Shown: piece after piece, positions 17,540-34,906 of the stretch | Numbering within the stretch: the first letter of the stretch is position 1 | Layout: each line of letters opens with the position of its first letter | DNA from: Candidatus Gastranaerophilales bacterium | Lineage (GTDB): Bacteria; Cyanobacteriota; Vampirovibrionia; Gastranaerophilales; Gastranaerophilaceae | NCBI GenBank assembly: GCA_944325065.1 | Contig: CALUYS010000016.1 | Location: forward strand, 1-38,557 | Length of the DNA: 38,557 nucleotides | Reading direction: 5' to 3' | Made by a program: the position numbers and the translations under genes | Notes under the pieces: generated by a model | What the model saw: the letters and a program-made list of their open reading frames with translations, nothing else | Told to the model about the DNA's origin: nothing | Database searches by the model: none

Positions 17540-18676
17540 TTACTCTTTGTTAATATCTTCTTTTAACTGTACAGGCATAATCAAACATACATAATTTTCT
17601 TCATTAATTGGTGTAAACATAGTAGCTGATAAACTTCCATTTAAACCTATCTGTATATTTTCGCTATCCATGTTCTTTACTGACTCTATTATATACTTAT
17701 AATTAAATGCAATGTCAAGATCACCATCTTGATATTGTACATCTATTTCATCACTAGATTTTCCTTCTTCTGGCGTTTGTGCAAGCATTTTTATTTTATT
17801 ATAAATAAAACTAAACTCAATAATACTTGTTCTATCACTCACCATTGTTGAAACACGATCTAATGCATTTAAAAACTCTTCTCTATTTACTATCACGTTC
17901 TTTGGAAAACTCTTTGGAATTAACTGATTATATGGTGGAAAATCACCGTCTAGCAGTTGGCTCTCTAGCACAAAATTTTCTGTTTTAAACAACACTTTTA
18001 CTTTAGATATTATTATTGTCACTTTTTTATCTTCTGTAAGTTGACAAACACGTGAAAATTCGTTCAAAGCTTTTGACGGAATTATTATTGTTAATTCTTG
18101 CTCTATTTCTTTTTCACTTATTGGTTGTATTATACGTGCAAGTCGATTTCCATCTGTTGCTGCCATTTCGATATTATCTTTTCGAACCTTTATTATAACT
18201 CCACTTATTACATTACGGCTCTCTGGTGAGGCACAAGCAAAAACTGTATGGGTTATCCCTTTTATAAATGGTTCTGTTTCTATTTCAATCTCTTTCACCT
18301 CATACAAATCTCTAAATACTTTAGGAAAATCTCCAGATTCCATACTTATAACTTCATATTTCGTACTGCCACAACTTATTTCCATTATTTGTGTTGAGGT
18401 ATTAAGCTCAAAAAGTATTGGCTTTTCAGGTAGTTTATTTACTATTTCTATAAGTTTTTTCGCTCCCATTGTTGTAGATCCAGACTCTTCAACACTTGCA
18501 ACTTGAGTTGTTTCTATTGACATATCCATATCTGTTGAGGTGAGCTTTATTCTATTATCTTCAGATGCTTCTATTAAGATATTTGATAATATTGGATTTA
18601 TGCCTCGCAGCGATGCTATTTTTTCAACTACTTTTAACCGATTTAACAAATAACTTTTATCTATTGTAAATTTCAT
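17540..18676 (-). CDS. dnaN: DNA polymerase III beta subunit (sliding clamp)
   Basis: 378 residues, standard length. It forms a ring dimer that tethers the replicative polymerase to DNA. Seen: the N-terminal MKFTIDKSYLLNRL, three topologically equal domains, the ATDGNRLAR segment of the second domain, and a C-terminal LIMPVQL that corresponds to the VMPMRL motif near the ligand-binding groove. AAAGG lies 13 bases before the ATG. It reads away from the candidate origin (18719-19070), consistent with cyanobacterial gene order, where oriC adjoins dnaN rather than dnaA. Confidence 0.96.
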   Translation of the reverse strand: MKFTIDKSYLLNRLKVVEKIASLRGINPILSNILIEASEDNRIKLTSTDMDMSIETTQVASVEESGSTTMGAKKLIEIVNKLPEKPILFELNTSTQIMEISCGSTKYEVISMESGDFPKVFRDLYEVKEIEIETEPFIKGITHTVFACASPESRNVISGVIIKVRKDNIEMAATDGNRLARIIQPISEKEIEQELTIIIPSKALNEFSRVCQLTEDKKVTIIISKVKVLFKTENFVLESQLLDGDFPPYNQLIPKSFPKNVIVNREEFLNALDRVSTMVSDRTSIIEFSFIYNKIKMLAQTPEEGKSSDEIDVQYQDGDLDIAFNYKYIIESVKNMDSENIQIGLNGSLSATMFTPINEENYVCLIMPVQLKEDINKE

Positions 18677-18718
18677 TTTATTTTATACCTTTCTAACAGT
18701 TAATATTTGTATGATTTT

Positions 18719-18829
18719 GTTTATACTTATATTATCATAAATATATATTTTATTTGTTTTTTACTATTTGTATTTTTTGTTATTATTAATTTTATATAAT
18801 ATATATAATATTAATAGTAGTAGTAATAC
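18719..18829. other. Candidate DNA unwinding element and DnaA-trio track
   Basis: 18719-18811 is almost only A and T. It is followed by TAA TAG TAG TAG TAA TAC (18812-18829), which directly abuts the first box TGTAGAAAC at 18831. In the basal unwinding system described for Bacillus subtilis, repeated trinucleotides (5'-TAG-3' on the strand carrying the complement of the DnaA box) lie next to a box and guide DnaA onto single strands. The strand and order seen here agree with that model. Confidence 0.65.
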
Positions 18830-18830
18830 A

Positions 18831-19070
18831 TGTAGAAACTGTAGAAAACTTTTTTAAACCGTTGCACTGCAATAATTTTAACTATTTTTATATTGTAGAA
18901 AACAATGTAGAAATTATGTAGAAAAAATATAAAAAGTGTAGAAAATTTTATTAAGTGTTTTATTTTTTTTCAAAATTTTCTACATTTTACTTTCTTTTTC
19001 TACAAGTTTTGAACATAGTTTTCTACAATTTTTTTATAGTTTTCTACATATTTTACTTACTTTTTCTACA
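18831..19070. other. Candidate chromosomal origin (oriC): eleven TTTTCTACA-type boxes
   Basis: Boxes reading TGTAGAAA(A/C/T) start at 18831, 18840, 18894, 18906, 18917 and 18937. Boxes reading TTTTCTACA start at 18976, 18996, 19019, 19040 and 19062. The two groups face each other across an AT-rich centre near 18950-18975. The 9-mer is one base from TTTTCCACA, the DnaA box used by cyanobacteria. Clustering, symmetry and the neighbour dnaN support an origin. A plasmid-like iteron array or a regulator's binding region is an alternative. Confidence 0.75.
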
Positions 19071-19550: not shown

Positions 19551-19892
19551 CTATCCATTTATTTTCTTATTGTATTTCTTTATTGACTCTAAAAAATTTA
19601 AAAATAACTCTAACTCGGCATTATTAGAAGAATAGACTTCTTTTATAATCTTTTCCCTATTTAAATTTTTATTTTCTTCAAATTGAAACCCAAATTCTGA
19701 TAGCGGTACATTTAAAACCTCTATCAATTTAAAAAATGTTTCAAGACTAGGCATAAAAACACCTCTTTCCAATTTTCCATAGTGCTTTTCTGCAATTCCT
19801 ATTTTTTCAGATAGTTCTTCTTGGGTTAATTTAGCCTTTTTTCTATATTCTTTAAACTTTTTACCTAAAAATTCCTTATCGTAAAATATCAT
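19551..19892 (-). CDS. XRE-family helix-turn-helix regulator
   Basis: 113 residues. The Cro/C1-type helix-turn-helix covers about 10-65: FKEYRKKAKLTQEELSEKIG, then AEKHYGKLERG and PSLETFFKLIEVLNVPLSEF. A short Lys/Glu-rich C-terminal tail could mediate dimerisation. A GCGAGGT lies 10 bases before the ATG. Divergent from the secreted coiled-coil gene at 20043; it may control the shared 150-bp gap. Typical of phage or mobile-element regulators, in line with the decaying surroundings. Confidence 0.85.
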   Translation of the reverse strand: MIFYDKEFLGKKFKEYRKKAKLTQEELSEKIGIAEKHYGKLERGVFMPSLETFFKLIEVLNVPLSEFGFQFEENKNLNREKIIKEVYSSNNAELELFLNFLESIKKYNKKING

Positions 19893-20723: not shown

Positions 20724-22149
20724 ATGAATATTATAAAAAAATTAAAGACAATATTTGATAGTTTTATTGATAAAAGTGAGTCCTTAACTATGGCTCAAAC
20801 AAAAGAAAATAAAAATACTTTTGATAAAAATGGTCATTGCATAAGATGTAATAAACTAAGCTCATTAGATGAATTTGGGTATTGTTCCGACTGTGCTGCA
20901 ATAAAAAAAGCTATCGAAACGATAACTAGTATAGAACATCGAATAGCAAAAGACACGGATTACCTATATCAAACAGTGAAAGAAGCTAACACGTATAATT
21001 ATTCCAAACTTGATATAGAAAATGCGGAATTGATTAGTAATCTTAATGGTGTAGAAAAAAAGTTTTTAGAATATATGGAAGCTAAACCTGCTAATAGTTT
21101 TGAACTAGCTGGCTACTGGATATATGAACATTTTATAGATTGCAATTACTTAATATCAAAACTAATTAAGAACGGGTATCTCGAAATAAGTGAATATAAA
21201 AGTTTATCTATAATGACAACAGATGAGCTCAAAAACATACTAAAAAAAGCAAATCTTAAAATAGTAGGAACTAAAAAAGAATTAATACAAAGAATAGAAG
21301 AAAATTTAAATGAAGATGAAATCAAATCAATGTCTGAAAATAAAGAAAAGTTTTTTGTGCTTACAGCAAAAGGAAAAAATATTTTACAAGGAGAAAAAAC
21401 TGTAATAGCAAAAGATATTGATTTTGAGAAAAACTGTTATAATTTAATTTTGAATAATCGTTTAGACGAAGCGTATAAACTAGTATGCGAGTATGAAAAT
21501 AGCAAACTCACTCCTAGAGGTATAAATTGCGACTGGAACAATACAAAAAAGACATTTCATTTATATATTGATACAGAGTTACCGTTTAAACTACCAAAAT
21601 GTTTAGAAAAATATGAAAAAGAGGTAAAAGCAACAGCAATATATACACAAATGATGGGTGCAGGGGAAAAGAAAGCTAAAAGTTTTTTTGTTAATCACTA
21701 TAAAATTGATTTTGACAAAGAAATACTGGACAAAGTATTTCACGCACTTTGTTTTGTTGCAATGGGAGTAGAATTACCAGAAGATTTCAACATTGAGAAT
21801 ATAGAAGAAAAAATAGAAGCTGACAAAAACTTGCCTAAAAGTTATTTTGAAAACTTATCTACTGAAAAATTTATAGAGCAATTAAAAAAAAGAGTTACAA
21901 AATGCAGGCTATGATTTGCAAAAATTGCAATATGATGAACTCAAGGATGGTACTTGTAATTTTATGTATGAAGATATGCAAATTGGAAGAATAAAATTTG
22001 GTAAAAAAAGCTCAAGTATGCAGATTATGTCGCTTGATTTTGTTGACTGGTTAAAAAATGAAACAATGGAAACATATTTAGATAATATCCCAAAATGGAT
22101 TAAATATTTAAAAGAAATAAAGGCTGAAAGAGAAAAATATGGAATATAA
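20724..22149 (+). pseudogene. SAP-domain protein gene, split by a frameshift in an A8 run
   Basis: The first frame (20724-21914, 396 codons) carries a zinc ribbon (CIRC 39-42, CSDC 54-57), helical segments, and a SAP DNA-binding domain (about 161-195: TTDELKNILKKANLKIVGTK). It ends RVTKCRL right after TTAAAAAAAAGAG (21882-21894). Skipping one A gives QLKKELQNAGYDLQKLQYDEL and joins smoothly to the second frame, which runs to 22149. A +1 shift, or transcript slippage in the A8 run, would restore one protein of about 475 residues. Family members are phage- or mobile-element-associated. The next gene, a nuclease remnant, is also broken, which favours decay over programmed shifting. Confidence 0.7.
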
Positions 22150-22734: not shown

Positions 22735-23013
22735 ATGAATAATTTTTTATTTAACCTTAAAACTCCTAATGATATAGTGCGTGAATTGGCTGAGAAAATT
22801 AAGCAGCATAGAAAAAAGCTTAAAATTTCTCAGGCACAACTTGCTTCTAAATCAGGTGTTAGTCTTGGTTCTATTAAAAGGTTTGAATCCAAGTATGAAA
22901 TTTCATTGAATTCTTTTATAAAAATTCTAATTGCTCTTAATTTAGAGCAGGATTTAGAAAATTTGTTCACACAAAAAAGCTACAACTCAATTGATGAGGT
23001 TATAAATGGATAA
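22735..23013 (+). CDS. hipB: HipB-like XRE antitoxin
   Basis: 92 residues. Helix-turn-helix domain at about 15-75: RELAEKIKQHRKKLKISQAQ, ASKSGVSLGSIKRFE, then a helix ending in LNLEQDLENLF. It binds DNA and neutralises HipA. The stop overlaps the hipA start by 8 bp, so translation is coupled. It starts directly at the promoter without a ribosome site (see control region). Confidence 0.88.
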   Translation: MNNFLFNLKTPNDIVRELAEKIKQHRKKLKISQAQLASKSGVSLGSIKRFESKYEISLNSFIKILIALNLEQDLENLFTQKSYNSIDEVING

Positions 23014-24112
23014 CTATAAATATTTAAAAGTTTTTTATAATTATATTTTAGTTGGTACTCTTGCAAAAACCCCTAATAGAGTTGTAGCTTTTGAATATGA
23101 TTCAGATTGGTTGAATAAAGGGTTTAGCATTTCACCTTTTAGTTTACCGCTCATCAAGAAAGTTTTTATTCCAAAATATGATCCATTTGGTGGTTTATTT
23201 GGAGTTTTTAACGACAGTTTGCCTGATGGTTGGGGACGATTGTTAGTTGACAGATTGTTTTTGAAAAATAAAATTAACCCTGCTCAAATAGATAACCTCA
23301 ATAGACTTGCTGTTGTACAAGAAAGTGGTATGGGGGCTTTAACTTATAAACCAAAACATAGATTTGAATCAGAAAATAACATTTCTGATCATGATATTCT
23401 TGCTCAAGAGTGTTCAAAGATATTAGAAACGCAAAATTCAGAAAATTTGGATGAACTTTTTTTCTTAGGTGGCTCATCGGGTGGTGCAAGACCAAAAATT
23501 TTGACATCTATTGATAATGAGGATTGGATTATTAAATTTCCGTCATCACCTGATCCTAAAAATATAGGAGAAAAAGAATATCAATATTCCTTATGTGCAA
23601 AATATTGCGGAATAAATATGACTGAGACAAGACTTTTTCCATCTAAAATTTGTTCAGGATATTTTGGAATAAAAAGGTTTGACCGTAAAAATGGTAAAAA
23701 AGTTTATATGGTATCAGTTAGTGGACTGTTAGAGACGAGTCACAGGCTTCCTAATCTTGATTATAACACATTGATGAAATTAACACTTGAACTAACAAGA
23801 AATTATCAGGATATTGAACAATTATTCAGACTAATGTGCTTTAATGTGTTTGCAAACAATCGAGATGACCATTCAAAGAATTTTTCTTTCCTTTATGATG
23901 ATACAAAAAACGAATGGCACTTATCTCCAGCCTATGATTTGACTTACAGTTTTTCATTTAATGGAGAACACGCAACCACAATTAATGGCGAGGGTAAAAA
24001 TCCGACCATAGATGATATCCTAGCAGTGGCAAAAAATATAGGACTCAAGGAAAAATTTGCAAAAGATATTGCATTAGATATTCAAGAAAAATGCTCAAAA
24101 CTATTTAATTAA
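23006..24112 (+). CDS. hipA: HipA-like Ser/Thr kinase toxin
   Basis: 368 residues, shorter than Escherichia coli HipA (440). HipA kinases phosphorylate aminoacyl-tRNA synthetases or related targets and cause dormancy. Seen: N-terminal subdomain (about 5-110, with GVFNDSLPDGWGR), the Gly/Ser-rich loop LGGSSGGARPK (154-164), in which a serine is autophosphorylated in HipA, lysine in WIIKFPS (about 177), the catalytic NNRDDHSKN (284-292; D287 as base), and the metal-binding AYDL (D311). All motifs are intact, so the module looks active, in contrast to the broken genes on both sides. Confidence 0.9.
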   Translation: MDNYKYLKVFYNYILVGTLAKTPNRVVAFEYDSDWLNKGFSISPFSLPLIKKVFIPKYDPFGGLFGVFNDSLPDGWGRLLVDRLFLKNKINPAQIDNLNRLAVVQESGMGALTYKPKHRFESENNISDHDILAQECSKILETQNSENLDELFFLGGSSGGARPKILTSIDNEDWIIKFPSSPDPKNIGEKEYQYSLCAKYCGINMTETRLFPSKICSGYFGIKRFDRKNGKKVYMVSVSGLLETSHRLPNLDYNTLMKLTLELTRNYQDIEQLFRLMCFNVFANNRDDHSKNFSFLYDDTKNEWHLSPAYDLTYSFSFNGEHATTINGEGKNPTIDDILAVAKNIGLKEKFAKDIALDIQEKCSKLFN

Positions 24113-25203: not shown

Positions 25204-25887
25204 TTGAGTATAAACGGATTGGATACAATATTAAATAGAATGCAAGATATTGAACGTCAGTTTGATGTGTTAAGTAGTGCTTTTAATAATATAGTAGGTG
25301 AAAACGATGCGTTTAATGTTTCTAATGTGCGAGAAGTTGAAAATAAACAGGATTTTCAACAAATATTGAATGCAAAAGAACTTATCGAGGAAGCTCAAAA
25401 TAGTAGTTTAAACAATGATGAGAGTTATATAAACCTAAACGGATATAGTGGGATAACAAACAATAATCGTTCAAATACCCTCACAAGCAAAACTCGGATT
25501 AACGAGTTAATTGATGAATATTCGCAAAAATATGGTCTTGATAGTGATTTTGTAAAAGCAGTAGTTAAACAAGAATCAGGATTTAACGAAAAAGCAACAT
25601 CAAAATGTGGTGCAATGGGTTTGATGCAGCTTATGCCTGGAACCGCAAAGGCATTAAATGTAGCTGACCCTTATAATGCACGTGATAATATTGAAGGTGG
25701 TGTTAAATATTTAAAAGGACTAATGGATAGGTTTGATGGCGATATGAAATTGGCACTTGCAGCATATAATGCAGGACCGAATGCAGTTAAGAAGTATAAT
25801 GGTATCCCACCATATAATGAAACACAAAACTATGTAAAAAACATAATGTCAATGTATCAAAGGATTCAGTCGGGAGGTGAATTATGA
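25204..25887 (+). CDS. Lytic transglycosylase (SLT domain), first gene of the flagellar operon
   Basis: 227 residues starting at TTG 25204, after AGGGG and AAAAGG purine blocks. The N-terminal part (about 1-95) is helical and Asn-rich, without a signal peptide. The C-terminal SLT domain (about 98-220) has the catalytic Glu in VKQESGF (E124), GLMQLMP (139-145) and AYNAGP (187-192). It cleaves glycan strands with anhydro-sugar formation. The ATGA overlap with flgF and the absence of a muramidase domain in FlgJ suggest that it opens the wall for the flagellar rod. Export without a signal peptide could go through the flagellar secretion system. Confidence 0.88.
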   Translation: MSINGLDTILNRMQDIERQFDVLSSAFNNIVGENDAFNVSNVREVENKQDFQQILNAKELIEEAQNSSLNNDESYINLNGYSGITNNNRSNTLTSKTRINELIDEYSQKYGLDSDFVKAVVKQESGFNEKATSKCGAMGLMQLMPGTAKALNVADPYNARDNIEGGVKYLKGLMDRFDGDMKLALAAYNAGPNAVKKYNGIPPYNETQNYVKNIMSMYQRIQSGGEL

Positions 25888-26699
25888 TATCAAAAGGCAT
25901 GGAAATAGCGTCAAAGGGTATGAATGCGTTAATTGATTTTAACGATACTATTGCAAATAATATAGCAAATGTTAACACTTCAGGATTTAAACGAGCAGGG
26001 TTAACGTTTAAGAATATATATGATAGTGCAGTTGAGAAGGTTAATTTAACAAAAAACCCTAAATATGCAGAACATAAACATTTAGGTTATATTTCCATGG
26101 GGTCAAAGGTAAACACGCTTACAAATGAGTTCTCACAAGGTGCATTGAATAGAACTGGCAATCCTCTTGATATAGCTATTGAGGGTGATGGTTTTTTTAA
26201 AACTATGAGTCCTGATGGTAAAATCACTTATACTAGAAATGGAGCATTCAATATTAATAATAAAGATATGCTTGTTGATGAAGAGGGTAATTATGTATTG
26301 GATGTTTTAAATAAACCTATAAAAATAGATTTGAAACAAGGAAATTTGCGGACTCGTGGTGATATCATTATTGGTGAAGATGGGCAGATTGAATTGAATA
26401 TGGATAATACAAGGTTGCAACTTCAAAAGCTAGCGATTGTAGATTTTCAAAATAAAGAAGATTTAAAATCTGTTGGGCATTCACGTTATGTGCCAAGTGA
26501 TATTGGGGTTAATCCTGAGTTAAAATCAGAAAAATTTACGATTCAACAAGGAGCAATTGAAACATCAAACAGTAATATTATTCGTGAAATGGTTAATATG
26601 ATAAATGTTTCACGCAATTATGAAAGTTTATCCAAATTTATGAAAACGGAATCTGATAATTTAAGTCGTGTTATAAATTTGGCACGGGTTAATTTGTAA
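25884..26699 (+). CDS. flgF: Flagellar proximal rod protein FlgF-like
   Basis: 271 residues of the FlgE/F/G basal-body rod family. Seen: N-terminal NNIANVNTSGFKR heptad region, GDGFFKT in the middle, and a C-terminal helix ending NVSRNYESLSKFMKTESDNL. It is exported through the flagellar type III apparatus and joins the axial rod. FlgF rather than FlgG because it precedes a clearer FlgG and shows more divergence; a duplicated flgG is the alternative. Start overlaps the transglycosylase stop (ATGA). Confidence 0.88.
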   Translation: MISKGMEIASKGMNALIDFNDTIANNIANVNTSGFKRAGLTFKNIYDSAVEKVNLTKNPKYAEHKHLGYISMGSKVNTLTNEFSQGALNRTGNPLDIAIEGDGFFKTMSPDGKITYTRNGAFNINNKDMLVDEEGNYVLDVLNKPIKIDLKQGNLRTRGDIIIGEDGQIELNMDNTRLQLQKLAIVDFQNKEDLKSVGHSRYVPSDIGVNPELKSEKFTIQQGAIETSNSNIIREMVNMINVSRNYESLSKFMKTESDNLSRVINLARVNL

Positions 26700-26869
26700 A
26701 AAAGTAATTTAAAAAAGGGGAAAGAATGCAAGGAGGTAAAAGAATTTCAAATGGAAACACCAAATACTTCGTGTCATCCTGAAAAAGTAAAAAAGAAAGA
26801 AAACAAAGGAATAATAAAAGTAAATAACAAATGCGAATTAAAACTATAAATAATATAAATATATTTAAA

Positions 26870-27161
26870 GCCCTTCGGGCGGAGTTACTTTTTGTGGACA
26901 AAGTAACCAAAACCGCAACCCGATTTGTCCCTCACATTCTCACTAAACTCAACTCGAGCCTGAGTAAATCGCATTGGTCGATGTCTAATGCTCAAACAAA
27001 CTTGGCTTTGACGTTGTCGCATTAGCGGATTTCCGGACGGGCGAAGTCCCGGTGAGCGAGTAACCGAAGCCGACAGCCCGAAGGGCAACAGGCGAAGTTT
27101 TTCGAGCTTGAAGGAAACCCAAGACAGTGATAATTGTTCGTGGCTGCGTATGGGTTGCAAT
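26870..27161 (-). repeat. Dispersed intergenic repeat, copy A (inverted relative to copy B)
   Basis: Right end (minus strand) ATTGCAACCCATACGCAGCC; left end two hairpins, GCCC TTC GGGC (26870-26880) and GTTACTTT / AAAGTAAC (26884-26907). Both ends and the segment TAGTGAGAATGTGAG recur in copy B at 29711-29892 in the opposite orientation. The middle is about 110 bp longer here and much more GC-rich than the surroundings. Confidence 0.8.
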
Positions 27162-27252
27162 TATTGAATTTATCACAAAATATTAATAAAGGAAGGGAAA
27201 GAAAAATTGATAAAAAGGAAAAATAACAAAGAATTGAACTATTCCATAGGGT

Positions 27253-27277
27253 TGCAAGGGGGCGAAGCCCCCTTGCA
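27253..27277. repeat. Perfect 11-bp GC-rich stem-loop
   Basis: TGCAAGGGGGC, loop GAA, GCCCCCTTGCA. The GCGAAGC tip is a known exceptionally stable mini-hairpin. No T run follows on either side, so it is not a classic terminator. It may protect or separate parts of the flagellar mRNA. Confidence 0.85.
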
Positions 27278-27434
27278 CTAACCAAGGTTGGAGAAATAAA
27301 TGGTTGTTGGGAAAAAGCAAAAACTACACCTAGTTTCGCCCCAACCAACGTGAAATTAATAACAAACTGATAAGATGTTCACATAAATTCACCATGATGA
27401 AAGAAAAAATAAAATGAAAGGTTCAAAATAAAAA

Positions 27435-28220
27435 ATGTTAAGGTCACTAACAACAGCAGCAACAGGTATGATAGCACAGCAAAACAATTTGGATATTGTT
27501 GCAAATAACGTAGCGAATGTAAATACAACGGGTTTCAAAAAAGTTCGTGCGGAGTTTCAGGATTTGTTATCAACAGCACAAAAAACTCCTGGAGCAATGC
27601 TTACACAGGGTACTTATCAACCTGTTGGCGTCGAAATAGGTTTGGGAGTGAAAACAGCTGCCACAACAAGAATATTTACCCCAGGAGTTATTCAAAGTAC
27701 AGGGAATCAAACTGATGTGGCTATTGAAGGTGAGGGTTTTTTTCAAATAGTGAGAACAGATGGCACAATTGCATATACACGTGATGGTTCATTTAAGATA
27801 GATGCTCAAGGCCAGTTTTGTACAGCAGACGGACTTCTTATACAACCACAAATAACAATCCCTCAAAATTATAATGAAATAACTATAACGCCAGATGGTA
27901 ATGTATGTGTAAAACAAGGAAACGAAAATGAACAAACAATAGTTGGTCAAATACAGCTTGTTAAGTTTCAAAATCCTTCAGGGCTTTTGTCAATAGGTCA
28001 TAACCTTTTTGTTGAAACCCCTGCATCAGGAACTCCAATTGCTGGAACTCCTGGGGAAGATGGGTTAGGTTCTTTGCAGCAAACTTATTTGGAAGGTTCA
28101 AATGTGCAAATTGTTGAAGAACTAATCAATTTGATTAAGGCTGAACGTGCTTTTGAGTCAAATTCTAAGGTCATTACAGCTTCAAGTGATATACTTCAAC
28201 AAACTAATCAAATTGTTTAA
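27435..28220 (+). CDS. flgG: Flagellar distal rod protein FlgG
   Basis: 261 residues, exactly the usual length. Seen: MLRSLTTAATGMIAQQNNLD start, VANNVANVNTTGFKK, GEGFFQI, and the C-terminal YLEGSNVQIVEELINLIKAERAFESNSK, all diagnostic for FlgG. It builds the distal rod that crosses the periplasm. AAAGG lies about 13 bases before the ATG. It is followed after 28 bp by flgA. Confidence 0.95.
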   Translation: MLRSLTTAATGMIAQQNNLDIVANNVANVNTTGFKKVRAEFQDLLSTAQKTPGAMLTQGTYQPVGVEIGLGVKTAATTRIFTPGVIQSTGNQTDVAIEGEGFFQIVRTDGTIAYTRDGSFKIDAQGQFCTADGLLIQPQITIPQNYNEITITPDGNVCVKQGNENEQTIVGQIQLVKFQNPSGLLSIGHNLFVETPASGTPIAGTPGEDGLGSLQQTYLEGSNVQIVEELINLIKAERAFESNSKVITASSDILQQTNQIV

Positions 28221-28248
28221 TTTAAATTAAATATTTAGGATAAGATTT

Positions 28249-28986
28249 ATGGGGAAAGGGTTTATAAAAAAGTTAAATATACTAAATCTAATATTTTTAA
28301 TGATGTTAAGTTTTGCTTTGTCTTCAAATATCTTATTTGCAAACACATTAACCGTTGATGATATTGAAAAACAAATTATAATGACTGTTACAAACGAACT
28401 AAAATTAAAAGGTTATGAAGATGTAAATGTAAGTGTGTTAAATATGCCAATATTGTCATTATATAGTAAAAATGGTGTATATAAAGTAGTTGTATCAAAA
28501 GGTAATAACGGTTTAAATCAAAGAGAATTTAGGCAGGTTAGGATATTAAAAAACGGAATGCCTGTTAAAACTTTTGGTGTACCACTTGAGATTAAAGCTT
28601 ATAAATATGTGCTTTGTGCGAATGATACAATAACAAAAGAAAGCCCTATAAGTTATAATAATGTATATGTAAAACGTGTAAATGTAAGCAAATTTCAAGA
28701 TAATGTGCTTGATAAAAAGAGTTTAAACGGTGAAATAATAGCGAATAAAATGTTTCGACGAGATGAAATTATTGATAAACGTTTTGTAAAGTATAAGCCC
28801 GATATTTCAAAAAATGATAAAATAGAAGTAATTTTCAAAAATTCAAACGGACTATTTATATCTGTTGATGCAATAGCTTTAACGAACGGAAATATAGGTG
28901 ATTTAGTTAATGTAAAAAATAGCGTATATAATAAAATTTATACAGGAAAAGTGGTAAGTAAAAATAGAGTACAAATTGAGATTTAG
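28249..28986 (+). CDS. flgA: Flagellar P-ring assembly chaperone FlgA
   Basis: 245 residues. A signal peptide (1-31, cleavage near LFA) leads to the periplasm. The C-terminal half (about 115-245) has the SAF/FlgA pattern: KRDEIIDKRFVK, then VDAIALTNGNIGDLVNVKNS and KIYTGKVVSKNRVQI. It helps FlgI polymerise into the P ring. It lies between flgG and flgH, close to its client flgI. The flgH start lies 5 bp after its stop. Confidence 0.9.
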   Translation: MGKGFIKKLNILNLIFLMMLSFALSSNILFANTLTVDDIEKQIIMTVTNELKLKGYEDVNVSVLNMPILSLYSKNGVYKVVVSKGNNGLNQREFRQVRILKNGMPVKTFGVPLEIKAYKYVLCANDTITKESPISYNNVYVKRVNVSKFQDNVLDKKSLNGEIIANKMFRRDEIIDKRFVKYKPDISKNDKIEVIFKNSNGLFISVDAIALTNGNIGDLVNVKNSVYNKIYTGKVVSKNRVQIEI

Positions 28987-28990
28987 TGAG

Positions 28991-29635
28991 ATGAAAAGAA
29001 TAAATAGAAAACAAAACTTTATATCAGGAATAATTTTAACAATTTTAGTGATAAATATAGGAATAATGGCAAAAAGTGAGTCTTTATATTATATGCAAGC
29101 GAGTCAAACAGGAGGATATTCTGAGCCAAAATCTTTATATGGTTCAGTTCGTGCAAGATCTTTGGGTGACTTGCTTACAATTGCTTTAGATGAAAGTGTT
29201 ACATCAAATGATAGTTTACAATTTTCATCATCTCGTGATTCAACTACTGTAGATAATTTTACAAATTTAATAAATCGACTTTTGCCTGGTAAGATATTTA
29301 ATAATAATATAAACAATTATGGTGGGTCAAATGAAGTTTCAAGTAATACTTCTACATCGAGGGCTCTAAACTTTAAGAATAATGTAGCTGTTCAGGTTGT
29401 TCAAGTTATGCCAAATGGCAATCTTGTTGTGCAGGGTAAAAAAACAATAATGAGTGCAAACGAGCGTATGGATTTGCTTGTAAGTGGGATAGTTGATCCG
29501 CGTTGGATAAGCAATGCTGGTGTTGTGAGTTCAAAAAATGTAGCTAATTTGCAATTTGCAATGTCATCACAGGGTTCAACTTCTCGTGGTGGCAACGAGG
29601 GTATAATAAACCGTGCAATACGTTATTTGTTCTAA
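28991..29635 (+). CDS. flgH: Flagellar L-ring protein FlgH, without a lipobox cysteine
   Basis: 214 residues from ATG 28991 (GTGAG just upstream); an in-frame start at 28976 lies inside flgA and is less likely. The body is typical FlgH: SLYGSVRARSLGDLLTIALDE, the NNVAVQVVQVMPNGNLVVQGKK barrel segment (two parts: NNVAVQVVQV, MPNGNLVVQGKK), and SGIVDPRWIS with a late N-terminal-to-C-terminal GIINRAIRYLF end. It forms the outer-membrane bushing. Classical FlgH is a lipoprotein. Here the signal sequence ILVINIGIMAKSES has no cysteine, so lipidation is not possible as read. Confidence 0.92.
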   Translation: MKRINRKQNFISGIILTILVINIGIMAKSESLYYMQASQTGGYSEPKSLYGSVRARSLGDLLTIALDESVTSNDSLQFSSSRDSTTVDNFTNLINRLLPGKIFNNNINNYGGSNEVSSNTSTSRALNFKNNVAVQVVQVMPNGNLVVQGKKTIMSANERMDLLVSGIVDPRWISNAGVVSSKNVANLQFAMSSQGSTSRGGNEGIINRAIRYLF

Positions 29636-29940
29636 GTCAGATTGTATAAAAAAAGAAAAAAGGAACGATGAAAATAAAAGGAGATATAAAAATTTCAAAT
29701 GAAAACAACAGATGCAACCCATATGCAGCCGCGAACAATTATCACTTGGCAAAACATTGTCAAAGGGTCGACTGTTTGAGTGCGAAGCACGAGTTTAGGC
29801 TGTTTGGGTTGAGCCTAGTGAGAATGTGAGCGGCAAATCGGGTTGTGGTTTTGTGCAACTTTTGACACCAAAAGTTGCCCCGTCCGGAGGACATTAAAAT
29901 TAAATATATTTTTTAACAAGCTTTGTAGGATAAAGATAGA
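29636..29940. other. Gap between flgH and flgI with repeat copy B
   Basis: No gene. Largely occupied by the dispersed repeat (29711-29892). Confidence 0.6.
29711..29892 (+). repeat. Dispersed intergenic repeat, copy B
   Basis: Begins GATGCAACCCATATGCAGCC and ends in two hairpins: GCAACTTTT / AAAAGTTGC (29855-29878) and GTCC GGA GGAC (29882-29892). Compared with copy A, the first stem changed from GTTACTTT / AAAGTAAC and the second from GCCC / GGGC, with both arms altered together. Similar GC-richer elements with such hairpins are scattered in many genomes, with unknown function. Confidence 0.8.
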
Positions 29941-31065
29941 ATGAAAACTAAAATACAAAAACTAATAAGTATAACATTAATAGCAATTAGTATACTATTA
30001 ATAAATCAAACTAATACACTTGTTGAAAGTGCGACAGTTCGTATAAAGGATGTTGCACACGTTCAGGGGGTGCGAGATAATCAATTAGTAGGTTATGGTG
30101 TAGTTGTAGGGCTTCAAGGAACAGGTGATAATTCTCGTTCAACTCAAATAACAAACCAGTTAATGTTGCAGAATTTAGGAACAGTAATTGAACAATCAAA
30201 TTATATTCAAAAAGGTTCTTCAGCAGCAGTAATGGTTACAGCAACAGTTGGTCCTTTTGCAAAAAACGGTGATAAAATTGACTTAACTGTTTCAACAATG
30301 GCGGATGCAAAAAGCTTGGAGGGAGGTGTTCTTGTAATGACTCAACTTCGTGCTCCGAATGGTGAAGTTATAGCAACAGGTCAAGGACCAGTTTCAGTAG
30401 GTGGTACATCTGCACAAGCAAACGGTACAAGCAAACGCACATCAATCACTACAACAGGTCGTGTGCCAAATGGTGGGATTGTTGAACGTGAAATATACAC
30501 TCAAATTGGTGATGACACAAGTGTCACTTTGACTTTAAATAAAACAGATTATACCTTAACTGCACGTATTGCTCAAACAGTTAGTGATCTTATTGCACCT
30601 GCAAGAGCAGTTGATGGGAGTAGTATAAAAATAACCGTACCTCCAAAGTTTCAAAATAATCGTGTCGGTTTTTTGTCAATTATTGAAAACTTGCGTGTTG
30701 ATCCATCAGTTGAACGTGCAAAAGTTGTTGTTAATGAACGTACTGGAACAATAGTTATTGGTAATGAGGTAAAATTAATGCCAGCTGCGGTTGCTCATGG
30801 TGGAATAACTGTTTCAATATCAACATTAAATGAAGTAATCCAGCCAAATCCCTTTACAATGGGTGGAAGTGCTGTTGGGGTCTCAAATTCTGAAATAGAT
30901 ATTGAAGAACAAGGTGGAAATCTTGTTGAAATAAAAGCAAATTCAACATTAAACGACCTTGTTAAAGCTTTAAATACAATTGGAGTAAAACCAATAGACT
31001 TGATATCAATACTCCAAGCGTTGAAAGAAGCAGGGTCATTAAAAGCAGATATTGAGATAATATAA
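29941..31065 (+). CDS. flgI: Flagellar P-ring protein FlgI
   Basis: 374 residues, usual length. Signal peptide (1-31, cleavage near VESA), then RIKDVAHVQGVRDNQLVGYG, GLQGTGDNS, SSAAVMVTATVGPFAKNGD and a conserved C-terminal LVKALNTIGVKPIDLISILQ. It polymerises around the rod in the periplasm. With FlgH it proves a two-membrane envelope. Separated from flgH by the repeat-bearing gap. Confidence 0.96.
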   Translation: MKTKIQKLISITLIAISILLINQTNTLVESATVRIKDVAHVQGVRDNQLVGYGVVVGLQGTGDNSRSTQITNQLMLQNLGTVIEQSNYIQKGSSAAVMVTATVGPFAKNGDKIDLTVSTMADAKSLEGGVLVMTQLRAPNGEVIATGQGPVSVGGTSAQANGTSKRTSITTTGRVPNGGIVEREIYTQIGDDTSVTLTLNKTDYTLTARIAQTVSDLIAPARAVDGSSIKITVPPKFQNNRVGFLSIIENLRVDPSVERAKVVVNERTGTIVIGNEVKLMPAAVAHGGITVSISTLNEVIQPNPFTMGGSAVGVSNSEIDIEEQGGNLVEIKANSTLNDLVKALNTIGVKPIDLISILQALKEAGSLKADIEII

Positions 31066-31105
31066 ATTTAACAATAAGTCCATATTGGCAATTAAAGGAA
31101 TAAAT

Positions 31106-31465
31106 ATGACCAATATTACAACACAAATATCGCTAACAAATCATTCCGTGAGCATGGAAAATGCTGCGGTTGATGAAATATCAAAACTCAAATCACAAAA
31201 AGAACAACTTAAAAAAGTAAGCCAAGAATTTGAAAGTTTATTTATTTCAAAAATGTTGGAAGTTTTAGATAAAACTGTTGAACGTGATGAAGGTTCTTTT
31301 GCTTTGGGTGGTGGTGATTATTTAAAGAATTTTAAATCATACTTCCACATGGAACTAGGTCGTGAAATGGCAGCAAATGACAGGACAAGTTTTGGATTTG
31401 CTAAACAAATTTATCAACAAATGGAAAAATATGTGCAAGATGATAAAAATGGAGAAGTTATTTAG
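31106..31465 (+). CDS. flgJ: FlgJ-type rod-binding protein, no muramidase domain
   Basis: 119 residues from ATG 31106 (AAAGGA 5 bases upstream); an in-frame TTG at 31085 is weaker. It contains the rod-binding domain only: VSQEFESLFISKMLEVLDKT and MELGREMAANDRTSFGFAKQIYQQM. In many bacteria a C-terminal glucosaminidase is fused here; it is missing, and the lytic transglycosylase at 25204 is the likely replacement. Lies 40 bp after flgI. Confidence 0.88.
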   Translation: MTNITTQISLTNHSVSMENAAVDEISKLKSQKEQLKKVSQEFESLFISKMLEVLDKTVERDEGSFALGGGDYLKNFKSYFHMELGREMAANDRTSFGFAKQIYQQMEKYVQDDKNGEVI

Positions 31466-31485
31466 AAATAATAGGGATAAAAAAT

Positions 31486-31770
31486 ATGGGTATTCAATCG
31501 GTTCAAAATAATCAAGGTGTAAACCTTTTACAGTATATAAGTGCAAAAAATGCATTTCAAAATATAAATACTAATAAAAAAGATTATAATAGTGAAATAA
31601 ATCAAAATAAAGAAGTTCAAAATACTTTTGATGATAAAAATATGGTTTCAAAAATTAATACACAGGAGGTTAAAAACTATGCTTCTCAAATGAATGAAAA
31701 TTTAACTGATGATGATATTAAATACGGTCTTGTATATGGAAGAAGTGTAATTGCTGATTATATTGCTTAA
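31486..31770 (+). CDS. Small FlgM-like protein (putative anti-sigma-28 factor)
   Basis: 94 residues, Asn/Gln/Lys-rich and apparently disordered up to about 60. The C-terminus reads VKNYASQMNENLTDDDIKYG, then LVYGRSVIADYIA. FlgM ends with a helix pattern of I..AI..G.Y......IAD.L, and the spacing here is loosely alike. Its place between flgJ and flgN is the normal one for flgM. Identification rests mainly on position. No fliA is in the window. Confidence 0.45.
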   Translation: MGIQSVQNNQGVNLLQYISAKNAFQNINTNKKDYNSEINQNKEVQNTFDDKNMVSKINTQEVKNYASQMNENLTDDDIKYGLVYGRSVIADYIA

Positions 31771-31791
31771 AAAATTAAAAGAGAAACTATT

Positions 31792-32292
31792 ATGTTACAA
31801 AAACTTGATGAAATAAGTATTATTATAAAAAAACAAATAGATATTTATAAAAATATTAAAGATTTGTATAACGATAAACGCAATATACTTATTGCGGGGG
31901 ATTTAACTTTGCTTGAAAAAACGGATAATGAAATTATAATAAAAGCAAGTGAGGTAAATAAATACGAAATTAAACGTCAAATAATATGTAATGAGTTGGA
32001 AATAAATCAAAATGGCGGCAATTTAAGTGAAATAATTAACTATGCAGTAAATAATAGTTATGATGCACAAAATTTTATAAATATGAAAGAAACAATAAAT
32101 AGTTTGGTTGATGAAATAAAAGAGCTTGATAAAATAAACCGTGCATTGATTTCAAAAACAAGTGAAATTATAGGAAATACAATAAAAATAATAACAAATA
32201 ATGCATATATAAATACCTGTGAATATAGTAATACAGGCAAAAAGATAGACAACAAAGGTCTTGAATTATCATCAATAATAGAAGAAGGGTAA
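31792..32292 (+). CDS. flgN: FlgN-like chaperone for hook-filament junction proteins
   Basis: 166 residues, almost entirely helical/coiled-coil and without signal peptide. The family pattern is weak but present: LDEISIIIKKQIDIYKNIKD, then KRNILIAGDLTLLEKTDNE (the resembling L..GDL..L......E..L core) and a C-terminal coil. FlgN holds FlgK and FlgL before export. Location directly before flgK supports this strongly. Confidence 0.75.
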   Translation: MLQKLDEISIIIKKQIDIYKNIKDLYNDKRNILIAGDLTLLEKTDNEIIIKASEVNKYEIKRQIICNELEINQNGGNLSEIINYAVNNSYDAQNFINMKETINSLVDEIKELDKINRALISKTSEIIGNTIKIITNNAYINTCEYSNTGKKIDNKGLELSSIIEEG

Positions 32293-32311
32293 ACAGGAAG
32301 AAGATGTATTT

Positions 32312-32406
32312 ACTTCAACGCTTAAAGCGGGGGGAATGCATAAAAGAAGGAAAAAGGATGATTGGACTTCAACGCTTGAAGCGGGGGAATGCATAAAAGA
32401 AGGAAA
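32312..32406. repeat. Two direct repeats between flgN and flgK
   Basis: ACTTCAACGCTT(A/G)AAGCG followed by GGGGGAATGCATAAAAGAAGGAA occurs at 32312-32353 and 32366-32406 (sequence given in two parts). The CTTCAA / TTGAAG and CGCTT / AAGCG pairs can form small hairpins. The second copy ends in the flgK ribosome site (AGAAGGAAA), so a duplicated leader is likely. Confidence 0.85.
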
Positions 32407-32412
32407 TAAAAA

Positions 32413-33954
32413 ATGTCATTATCAGCAAGTATGAATATAGGATTGGGTGCGTTAAACGTAAACCAGGCAGCTATAAACGTTGTATCAAATAATATCGCAA
32501 ATATGAATACAGAAGGATATTCAAAACAACGTGTAGAGTTAGAAAATCTTAAAGGTTATAGTGCAATAGCAAATTCAGCAGGTAAAAGCAATTATATAGG
32601 CAATGGTGTTACAATAGCTAAAATTTCCACATATCGTGATATATATATGGATAGGAATTTTAGAAGTGAAAATACTCAATATAAGTTAAATGAAACTTTA
32701 TATGAATATGCAAGTAACATTGAAACGATAATGAATGAATATGAAGATGGCGGGATAAAAAATGCTTTAGAAAAATTTTATGATGCTGCCCAAAGTCTAG
32801 CATCTGATCCTTCAAATAGTGTATATAGAACTAATTTTGCAACGCAAGCACAAAATGTTGGTAATGTTTTTAATAAGTTACATTCAAGTTTAAGCGAAAA
32901 AAGAACGGAAATAGTAGGCGATGTAAATGACCCTGGGAGTTTAGATTCATCAATGGTAGGAATTTCAGTCGAGGAAGTTAATGAAAAATTACAATCGTTA
33001 GCTGATTTAAACTATAAAATAATAATAGCTGAAGCAAAAGGCAACGGGTCAGCCTCTTTACGTGATGAAAGAAGTCGTCTGCTTGATGAAATATCAAGTC
33101 AAATTCCAGTTACTGTAACAGAAAATTCAAATGGAACAGTTAATCTTTATATGAATGATATGCGTTTGGTTAAAGGTGCAAAACTTGAATGTACACTTGA
33201 AGCCGAAGTTGGTGATGAGGCGACTCCTGCTATTATTAATGTCCTTGATGAAGAAGGAAATATAAAATTTGCTAATGTAAACGATAAAATTAATAGCGGA
33301 CAACTAGGTGCATATTTGGAAATGGGGTCAAGTGAACCTAATACATTGTCATATTCTAATGTAATTTCCCAGTTAAATCAGCTTGCAAGTGGTTTTGCAA
33401 ATGATTTAAATGCAATACAAAAATATTCAAATGGTGATATACAGGCTATGAAAATAGAAGTTGATCCAGCATCAGGCGAGTTAAAATTAGCTCAAGCAAC
33501 GGAAGATTTATTTGTATCAAGTGATGGTAACCCAATTGACGCTTCAAATATTAAAATCAACGATGTCATTTTGTCAAATCCCAATGAAATAGCCGCTGCA
33601 CGTGTTGATATAACTAATTATGACGAGTTTGAAGTCGGCAATAGTGACAACATAAAACTTATGATAGAAGCACGTGATACAAATAATCAAGATTTAAATA
33701 ATACAAGTGTTGATAAATTCTTAACATCTATTGTTTCAAATATAGGGACAAAAACTGCAAATATTAAATCAGATTATGAAATAAGTCAAAGTACAAAAAT
33801 GGTGGTTGAAAATGAACGTCAAAATAAAATAGGTGTAAATTTGGATGAAGAATTAATAGATTTGGTTAAATATCAAACAGGATATCAAGCAGCATCAAGA
33901 ATTTTTAACGTTACGTCTGAACTTATGATGACGTTAGTTAATTTAGGAAAGTAA
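32413..33954 (+). CDS. flgK: Flagellar hook-associated protein 1
   Basis: 513 residues. N-terminal ALNVNQAAINVVSNNIANMN and EGYSKQRVELE, a central variable part, and a C-terminal LIDLVKYQTGYQAASRIFNV helix. It forms the first hook-filament junction zone and is exported through the flagellar apparatus with FlgN help. AAGGAAA precedes the ATG. FlgL follows after 25 bp. Confidence 0.95.
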   Translation: MSLSASMNIGLGALNVNQAAINVVSNNIANMNTEGYSKQRVELENLKGYSAIANSAGKSNYIGNGVTIAKISTYRDIYMDRNFRSENTQYKLNETLYEYASNIETIMNEYEDGGIKNALEKFYDAAQSLASDPSNSVYRTNFATQAQNVGNVFNKLHSSLSEKRTEIVGDVNDPGSLDSSMVGISVEEVNEKLQSLADLNYKIIIAEAKGNGSASLRDERSRLLDEISSQIPVTVTENSNGTVNLYMNDMRLVKGAKLECTLEAEVGDEATPAIINVLDEEGNIKFANVNDKINSGQLGAYLEMGSSEPNTLSYSNVISQLNQLASGFANDLNAIQKYSNGDIQAMKIEVDPASGELKLAQATEDLFVSSDGNPIDASNIKINDVILSNPNEIAAARVDITNYDEFEVGNSDNIKLMIEARDTNNQDLNNTSVDKFLTSIVSNIGTKTANIKSDYEISQSTKMVVENERQNKIGVNLDEELIDLVKYQTGYQAASRIFNVTSELMMTLVNLGK

Positions 33955-33979
33955 GTTAAAAAAGGAGTTGTTTTTTAAT

Positions 33980-34906
33980 ATGTTGACAAGAGTTACAAAT
34001 ATAGGACAAAATAACAATACTTTAAATCGTCTTACTTTATCTCAAAATAAATTTCTTGAAGTTCAAAACAAGTTAATGAGTGGTTATTCAGTAACAAAAC
34101 CTTCAGATGACTCTTTAAATACTGGAAAAATACTAAGTTTAAGTCGTGAATTAAATGATATTGTGACATACCAAAGAAATATATCAACATCACAGGGTGA
34201 AATTGATACATCTGAAAGTGTGTTAGCTGAATTAGGTGATAAATTACTTCGTGGAAAAGACTTAGCTATTCTAGCTTCCAATGAAATAAATAGTGAAGAA
34301 AGTTTAATTGCTATAAAAAACGAAGTTAGTGAGCTATTGGAAACTGTTAAAAACTTTTCCAATACAAAATATAATGGTAATTATATATTTTCAGGTTTAA
34401 ATACACAAACGTTAACCTACACTACGGATGACGATGGGAATATAACATATCAAGGTACAAATACAGGAAACTATAAAAGAGAAGTTAAAATATCAGATAC
34501 AGCATCTGTAACAATAAATGTAGATGGAAAATCTATATTTGGCAGTTATGATGCAATAACGAACACAGGTAATGGTGCTTTAGGCACTTTGGGAAAATTT
34601 GTAGCATATTTAGAAGAAGACCCGCCAAATACAGATGGTGTGCGTGAGTTAATCGATGAGTTTGAAAATAATGCAAATGAAGCAACAAAAGCTCGTACTT
34701 TTTTAGGCACACAAGCTCAATTATTGGAAGTTCAAACAACTAATTTTACCAATAATGAAATTTCACTATCAGAACAAAAATCTAACTTAACCGAAGTTGA
34801 CTTGGTCTCAGCAATATCGGATTTAATCGCACAACAATATGCATTGCAAGCTTCAATGCAGGCAGCTTCAAGCATACAAATGCCTTCACTTTTAAATTAT
34901 ATGTAA
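33980..34906 (+). CDS. flgL: Flagellar hook-associated protein 3
   Basis: 308 residues from ATG 33980 with AAAGGAG 12 bases upstream; a TTG at 33968 would lie directly on that ribosome site. Flagellin-like ends: NRLTLSQNKFLEVQNKLMSG, then KPSDDSLNTGKILSL; C-terminus NLTEVDLVSAISDLIAQQYA and LQASMQAASSIQMPSLL. It links FlgK to the filament. Last gene of the flagellar run; no flagellin or fliD gene follows in the window. Confidence 0.94.
   Translation: MLTRVTNIGQNNNTLNRLTLSQNKFLEVQNKLMSGYSVTKPSDDSLNTGKILSLSRELNDIVTYQRNISTSQGEIDTSESVLAELGDKLLRGKDLAILASNEINSEESLIAIKNEVSELLETVKNFSNTKYNGNYIFSGLNTQTLTYTTDDDGNITYQGTNTGNYKREVKISDTASVTINVDGKSIFGSYDAITNTGNGALGTLGKFVAYLEEDPPNTDGVRELIDEFENNANEATKARTFLGTQAQLLEVQTTNFTNNEISLSEQKSNLTEVDLVSAISDLIAQQYALQASMQAASSIQMPSLLNYM

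Follow-up and report, generated by a model that had tools for sequence, protein, structure and literature searches.

Does the dense cluster of repeated 9-mers directly upstream of dnaN in Candidatus Gastranaerophilales bacterium, a non-photosynthetic relative of the cyanobacteria from the gut, mark the origin of its chromosome, and how is its box related to that of the cyanobacteria? We approached this question by computation, examining how the locus is built, whether it is unique in the genome, how far it is conserved, where GC skew switches in relatives and how the box correlates with a residue of DnaA. The DNA analysed, here called the window, is a whole contig of 38,557 nucleotides from the draft genome G000. 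In cyanobacteria, both the link between dnaN and oriC and the use of TTTTCCACA boxes are established (PMC4674748, PMC6323995). For an oriC of Gastranaerophilales or Melainabacteria, and for the word TTTTCTACA, nothing was found in the literature searched, which covered few subscription papers. We conclude with high confidence that the locus is the chromosomal oriC of this bacterium and carries a basal unwinding system (BUS), because the array is unique and dense, the BUS geometry is present, the arrangement is conserved in relatives and the strand skew of relatives switches at the same place.

The gene bordering the candidate origin was identified as dnaN by a profile search in which it scored 285 bits against TIGR00663 (cut-off 138). 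From its start at 18676 dnaN is transcribed away from the candidate origin, which occupies positions 18690-19070 directly upstream. Eleven TTTTCTACA-type 9-mers lie at 18831-19070, nine of them exact and two with one mismatch, six on the reverse strand followed by five on the forward strand. The sequence-only reading had described these eleven as two opposed groups next to dnaN, with an AT-rich region and a trio track on the dnaN side in the strand and order of a BUS, and every one of these elements was found in the place it gave (Table 1); a twelfth box, TTTTGAACA at 19007-19015 on the forward strand, was absent from that reading and is in phase with the others. In their 5′ to 3′ orientation the two arrays point outward, with their T-rich ends facing one another. 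Judging from the start-to-start distances between successive boxes, which are 9, 54, 12, 11, 20, 39, 20, 11, 12, 21 and 22 bp (the last five within the right array), most steps within the arrays amount to about one or two helical turns.

Table 1. Features of the candidate origin and its two borders (window coordinates).
Feature	Position	Strand	Remarks
dnaN (sliding clamp)	17540-18676	-	TIGR00663 E 5.7e-85; three DNA_pol3_beta Pfam domains
AT-rich unwinding region (DUE), 112 bp	18700-18811		92% A+T; between trio and dnaN, as in relatives
DnaA-trio track TAATAGTAGTAGTAATAC	18812-18829	+	five trios 3′-AAT GAT GAT GAT AAT-5′ at 18812-18826
Degenerate box GTTTCTACA adjoining trio	18831-18839	-	place of B. 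subtilis DnaA-box 7
Exact box TTTTCTACA, 13 bp from trio	18840-18848	-	place of B. subtilis DnaA-box 6
Box-free stretch	18849-18893		next same-strand box starts 54 bp from BUS box
Left array	18894-18945	-	TTTTCTACA 18894-18902, ATTTCTACA 18906-18914, TTTTCTACA 18917-18925, TTTTCTACA 18937-18945
Right array	18976-19070	+	TTTTCTACA 18976, 18996, 19019, 19040, 19062; TTTTGAACA 19007
Uncharacterised conserved-family ORF, 104 aa	19053-19367	-	origin border opposite dnaN

This concentration of boxes is peculiar to the locus. The density of NTTTCTACA reaches 11 in 250 bp; no other part of the window has more than one, and Markov shuffles never exceed two. Nine of the 53 exact copies of TTTTCTACA in the 1.86-Mb draft genome are found here, as are all exact same-strand pairs spaced 1-30 bp apart; pairs of the looser word TTTTNWACA occur elsewhere in the genome without any comparable array. 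The close exact-word pairs of three relatives (G001, G006 and G012) are likewise all just upstream of dnaN, as are all but one each in G036 and G038, and G030 and G045 have no exact-word pair 1-30 bp apart. An intact DnaA is encoded in the window's own genome (TIGR00362, 469.7 bits) by a gene that sits on another contig (G000:C1:89478-90824) and does not adjoin the origin. No box cluster was found in the 12 kb around it, and an origin at dnaA in this genome was rejected on that ground. Away from the origin, a small in-phase cluster at G000:C27:5537-5577 consists of TTTTAAACA, TTTTGAACA, TGTTGAACA and TTTTGAACA and could be a DnaA-titration or regulatory site. Genome-wide, the reversed word occurs 130 times to the 53 of TTTTCTACA (raw counts, uncontrolled for codon usage), and the box seems to be depleted outside the origin.

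Reading outward from dnaN, the order of elements is the DUE, the TAA-TAG-TAG-TAG-TAA track, GTTTCTACA, an abutting TTTTCTACA, the gap and the arrays. The published rule for a BUS is a DnaA box followed by a spacer of at most 16 bp, 13 bp being the commonest, and at least three trios (PMC8287927); the locus has an exact box, a 13-bp spacer and five trios on the correct strand. The spacer itself contains the second, weaker box, co-oriented with the first, and it is the outer of the two (TTTTCTACA) rather than the inner (GTTTCTACA) that is nearer the consensus. The same tandem arrangement is formed by boxes 6 and 7 of B. subtilis (PMC10721633). The likeness to the B. subtilis BUS (PMC8287927, PMC10721633) extends to the co-orientation of the tandem boxes with the better match outside, the 13-bp spacer, the TAG and TAA trios on the same strand and the DUE beyond them, whereas the two boxes abut here, no clear GC-rich cluster precedes the trio, the box has other bases at positions 3 and 6, and dnaA is not adjacent.

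The closest named dnaN, 81% identical to that of the window, comes from Candidatus Gastranaerophilales. We then compared 74 dnaN loci from related genomes, mostly of this group, and found the module, taken as a TTTTNNACA box and a run of three or more trios separated by 10-16 bp, in 50 of them; the controls gave 0/74 on the reverse complement, none on reversed sequence and 0.1% of shuffles. The other 24 loci and several relatives are without the strict module at dnaN. Clustered and phased 9-mers in opposed arrays have the look of iterons, and we therefore considered a plasmid- or phage-type origin integrated near dnaN. This explanation was rejected and has a negligible probability: dozens of relatives have the array at the same site next to their chromosomal dnaN, the box is one base away from the cyanobacterial DnaA box, and no replication initiator gene was recognised among the immediate neighbours scanned.

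Skew was read from sampled stretches along the long contigs of relatives. In the 852-kb contig of G045 the sign of GC skew changes exactly at dnaN, with all seven samples to the left between -0.09 and -0.18 and all 13 to the right between +0.03 and +0.15. A switch at dnaN was also seen in a 610 kb contig of G040, in the single-contig genome G057, where it falls between 1.735 and 1.740 Mb with dnaA 0.7 Mb away, and in G030 of the same family, in which both plain skew and GC3 skew by gene strand flip. The window allows only a local measure of skew: its cumulative minimum is near 19.5-20 kb, and GC3 skew fits an origin on the left of the locus and is ambiguous on the right. For G001, of the same genus, plain GC skew is flat or noisy, and a lean in the expected direction shows only in GC3 taken by gene strand. 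Of the checks put forward with the sequence-only reading, GC skew came out in its favour in four relatives, each read on long contigs, and in this genome is only locally consistent with it. The count of the box elsewhere in the chromosome also favours it, with nine of 53 exact copies and all close exact pairs at the locus and no comparable array elsewhere.

These results bear directly on whether the array is a start of replication at all. Many boxes upstream of a replication gene would also fit a site for DnaA titration or regulation, either datA- or DARS-like or serving dnaN autoregulation. Against such a site are a full unwinding module (box, 13-bp spacer, trios and DUE) conserved in order and place, a strand skew that switches at dnaN in four relatives, and the lack of a second comparable array in the genome; we rejected this explanation on these points and consider it very improbable.

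The link to dnaN is not without exceptions. In G002 and G007 a similar array lies approximately 5 kb upstream of dnaN, that of G007 with a 54-bp gap, and in G014 the array is at a contig end. Five loci (L083, L084, L077, L080 and L072, from G034, G025, G035, G020 and G003, respectively) belong to the clade with Asn or Thr at DnaA residue 433 described below, and have an ORF, named by eye as a comF-like phosphoribosyltransferase, between two box clusters, one of which is inside its coding sequence. This suggests an origin in two parts, some of its boxes lying inside a gene. Arrays some 5 kb away and a comF-like gene between clusters therefore indicate that insertions can part the origin from dnaN.

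On the border opposite dnaN, the 3′ end of the 104-aa ORF overlaps the last box of the right array. It is no chance reading frame: about 75 related loci carry homologues, most of which lie immediately upstream of the origin, and these could be aligned. The family is present as a single copy in all 34 sampled genomes of the same family and in none of 44 other genomes of the phylum, and its linkage to dnaN is missing in many same-family genomes. It gave no usable Pfam, NCBIfam or PDB match; an AlphaFold model (pLDDT 89.5) consists of helices and a beta hairpin, for which no convincing PDB fold was found (best Foldseek E 0.9, best VIA Z 3.8). Further genes in the window include an HTH antitoxin-like regulator (19551-19892, reverse strand) and, separate from it, a HipA-like kinase with HipA N and C domains (22735-24112, forward strand) and a small ORF just ahead, all within 5 kb of the origin, as well as a protein of 396 aa (20724-21914, forward strand), encoded 1.7 kb from the origin, that contains a SAP domain, a putative DNA-binding module. 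On the forward strand, 25204-34906 holds an apparent flagellar gene cluster, the translations of which were assessed by eye and look like rod, hook, ring and flagellin-like proteins. Gut members of Gastranaerophilales are often described as non-motile.

We also compared the locus with the oriC regions of Synechococcus elongatus PCC 7942, Anabaena PCC 7120 and Cyanothece ATCC 51142. They are alike in having dnaN on one side, opposed arrays, a 13-bp spacer and a gap of 53-54 bp, and in several loci a co-oriented box pair by the trio. The differences are that box position 6, C in cyanobacteria, is T here (T or A in the order as a whole), and that the DnaA residue aligning with E. coli D433 is Lys here and Asp in cyanobacteria. 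No TTTTCCACA was found in the 1500 bp upstream of dnaN, where the box is TTTTCTACA. Three proposals made from the sequence alone are upheld by these comparisons, namely that the box is one base from the cyanobacterial one (position 6, T for the C of TTTTCCACA), that it is the lineage's own, as seen from the module in 50 of 74 related loci and the consensus TTTTNWACA, and that linkage of origin and dnaN is shared with cyanobacteria, in which the same dnaN-side layout carries TTTTCCACA (PMC4674748, PMC6323995).

The strict module rule selected 7 of 30 cyanobacterial dnaN loci, and in all seven the spacer is 13 bp and a gap of 53-54 bp separates the BUS box from the following one in the same orientation. 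Within this order the same gap measures 43-45 bp in 37 of 50 loci and 54-55 bp in 7 of 50, and 64-65 bp in a few loci of a second locus set; it is 54 bp in both the window and G001. The gap therefore steps by approximately 11 bp, or one helical turn, and we infer from this a constraint on origin shape that is shared with cyanobacteria. No protein binding the box-free gap was identified.

The second part of the question concerns the changed base. E. coli D433, in the recognition helix, is cited as contacting the box and as being highly conserved across bacterial classes (PMC8235120). The same paper, a secondary source on this point, assigns D433 to box position 7, not 6, which makes an atomic reading of residue 433 and this base pair uncertain. 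All 26 examined DnaAs from outside the class (cyanobacteria and other outgroups of the phylum) have Asp at 433, and Lys was found in the window's own genome and 42 others of the 53 order members in our tree. We counted TTWTNNACA sites in the 900 bp upstream of dnaN. In K433 genomes 306 of the 324 sites have T or A at position 6, and in D433 genomes (cyanobacteria) 62 of the 70 have C, the sites within each set not being independent; the consensus across the order is TTTTNWACA. A clade nested among the K lineages has N433 in four of its five members and T in the fifth (G020), and TTTTGCACA boxes are found in three of the N433 genomes. G057, of the same class, combines Q433 with TTATCAACA, that is, CA. 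The recognition helix is otherwise cyanobacteria-like, although many members have also lost the counterpart of E. coli P423.

In a tree built from the AAA+ domain alone, leaving out domain IV, order members with N, R, T or Q at this residue nest among K rows. On this tree K433 looks like a single gain at the base of the order, and N, R, T and Q look to have arisen inside it. The contrast between K and D comes down essentially to one split in evolution, so that few independent events lie behind the correlation. A code of one residue for one base is not clean: at positions 5-6 K433 genomes use CT, GA, AT and AA, and at position 6 both C and A occur among N433 genomes. A lineage-wide shift of the box attributed to changes in DnaA domain IV is also known from epsilonproteobacteria, the boxes of which have the core TTCAC (PMC5043019); there the C at position 5 became T and position 6 is still C, whereas in the present order the change is at position 6 and position 5 is variable.

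The pairing of residue 433 with box position 6 is a correlation, in which K433 would be the reader of the changed position. We think it fairly probable, from the sequence comparisons, that the two are functionally coupled: D433K would have shifted position 6 from C to T or A in boxes throughout the origin, and later changes such as Lys to Asn would have shifted it again, with the cyanobacterial geometry (13-bp spacer, 43/54-bp gap) kept throughout. A competing explanation, which concerns this co-change and not the origin itself, is that C-to-T drift altered the box while DnaA went on reading it as before, K433 being a coincidental marker of the lineage. The AT-rich genomes and the near-single origin of K433, with few K versus D contrasts, are in keeping with drift; position 8 remains C while position 6 changes, three genomes of the K-to-N subclade carry TTTTGCACA boxes, and the conservation of D433 across bacterial classes, as reported in PMC8235120, also counts against it. 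On balance we regard drift as unlikely, though with a real share of the probability. If functional coupling is true, the order offers a natural series of initiator-origin specificity changes.

The proposed working of the origin is as follows. DnaA-ATP would bind the tandem boxes at 18831-18848, and a DnaA filament would extend from there onto the trio strand at 18812-18826, so that the AT-rich DUE opens towards dnaN and helicase is loaded there. The two opposed, helically phased arrays would load extra DnaA and may deliver it to the unwinding site by looping. Both BUS-type unwinding and looping are read from the layout of the locus. The box would have moved from the cyanobacterial TTTTCCACA to TTTTCTACA in step with the recognition-helix change from Asp433 to Lys.

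Origins linked to dnaN and BUS modules were already known; the changed box and recognition residue are new, as is the extension of dnaN linkage to this lineage, tied to a change in DnaA. A located origin and the consensus TTTTNWACA for a large gut lineage help both origin prediction and growth-rate estimates from metagenomes. That the geometry is kept, and that the gap changes in steps of a full helical turn, suggests a limit on the shape of the origin that is shared with cyanobacteria. DnaA and its box are usually thought to hold each other fixed. Here a lineage has changed both, with intermediates, which makes a change of initiator specificity testable by a swap of one residue and one base.
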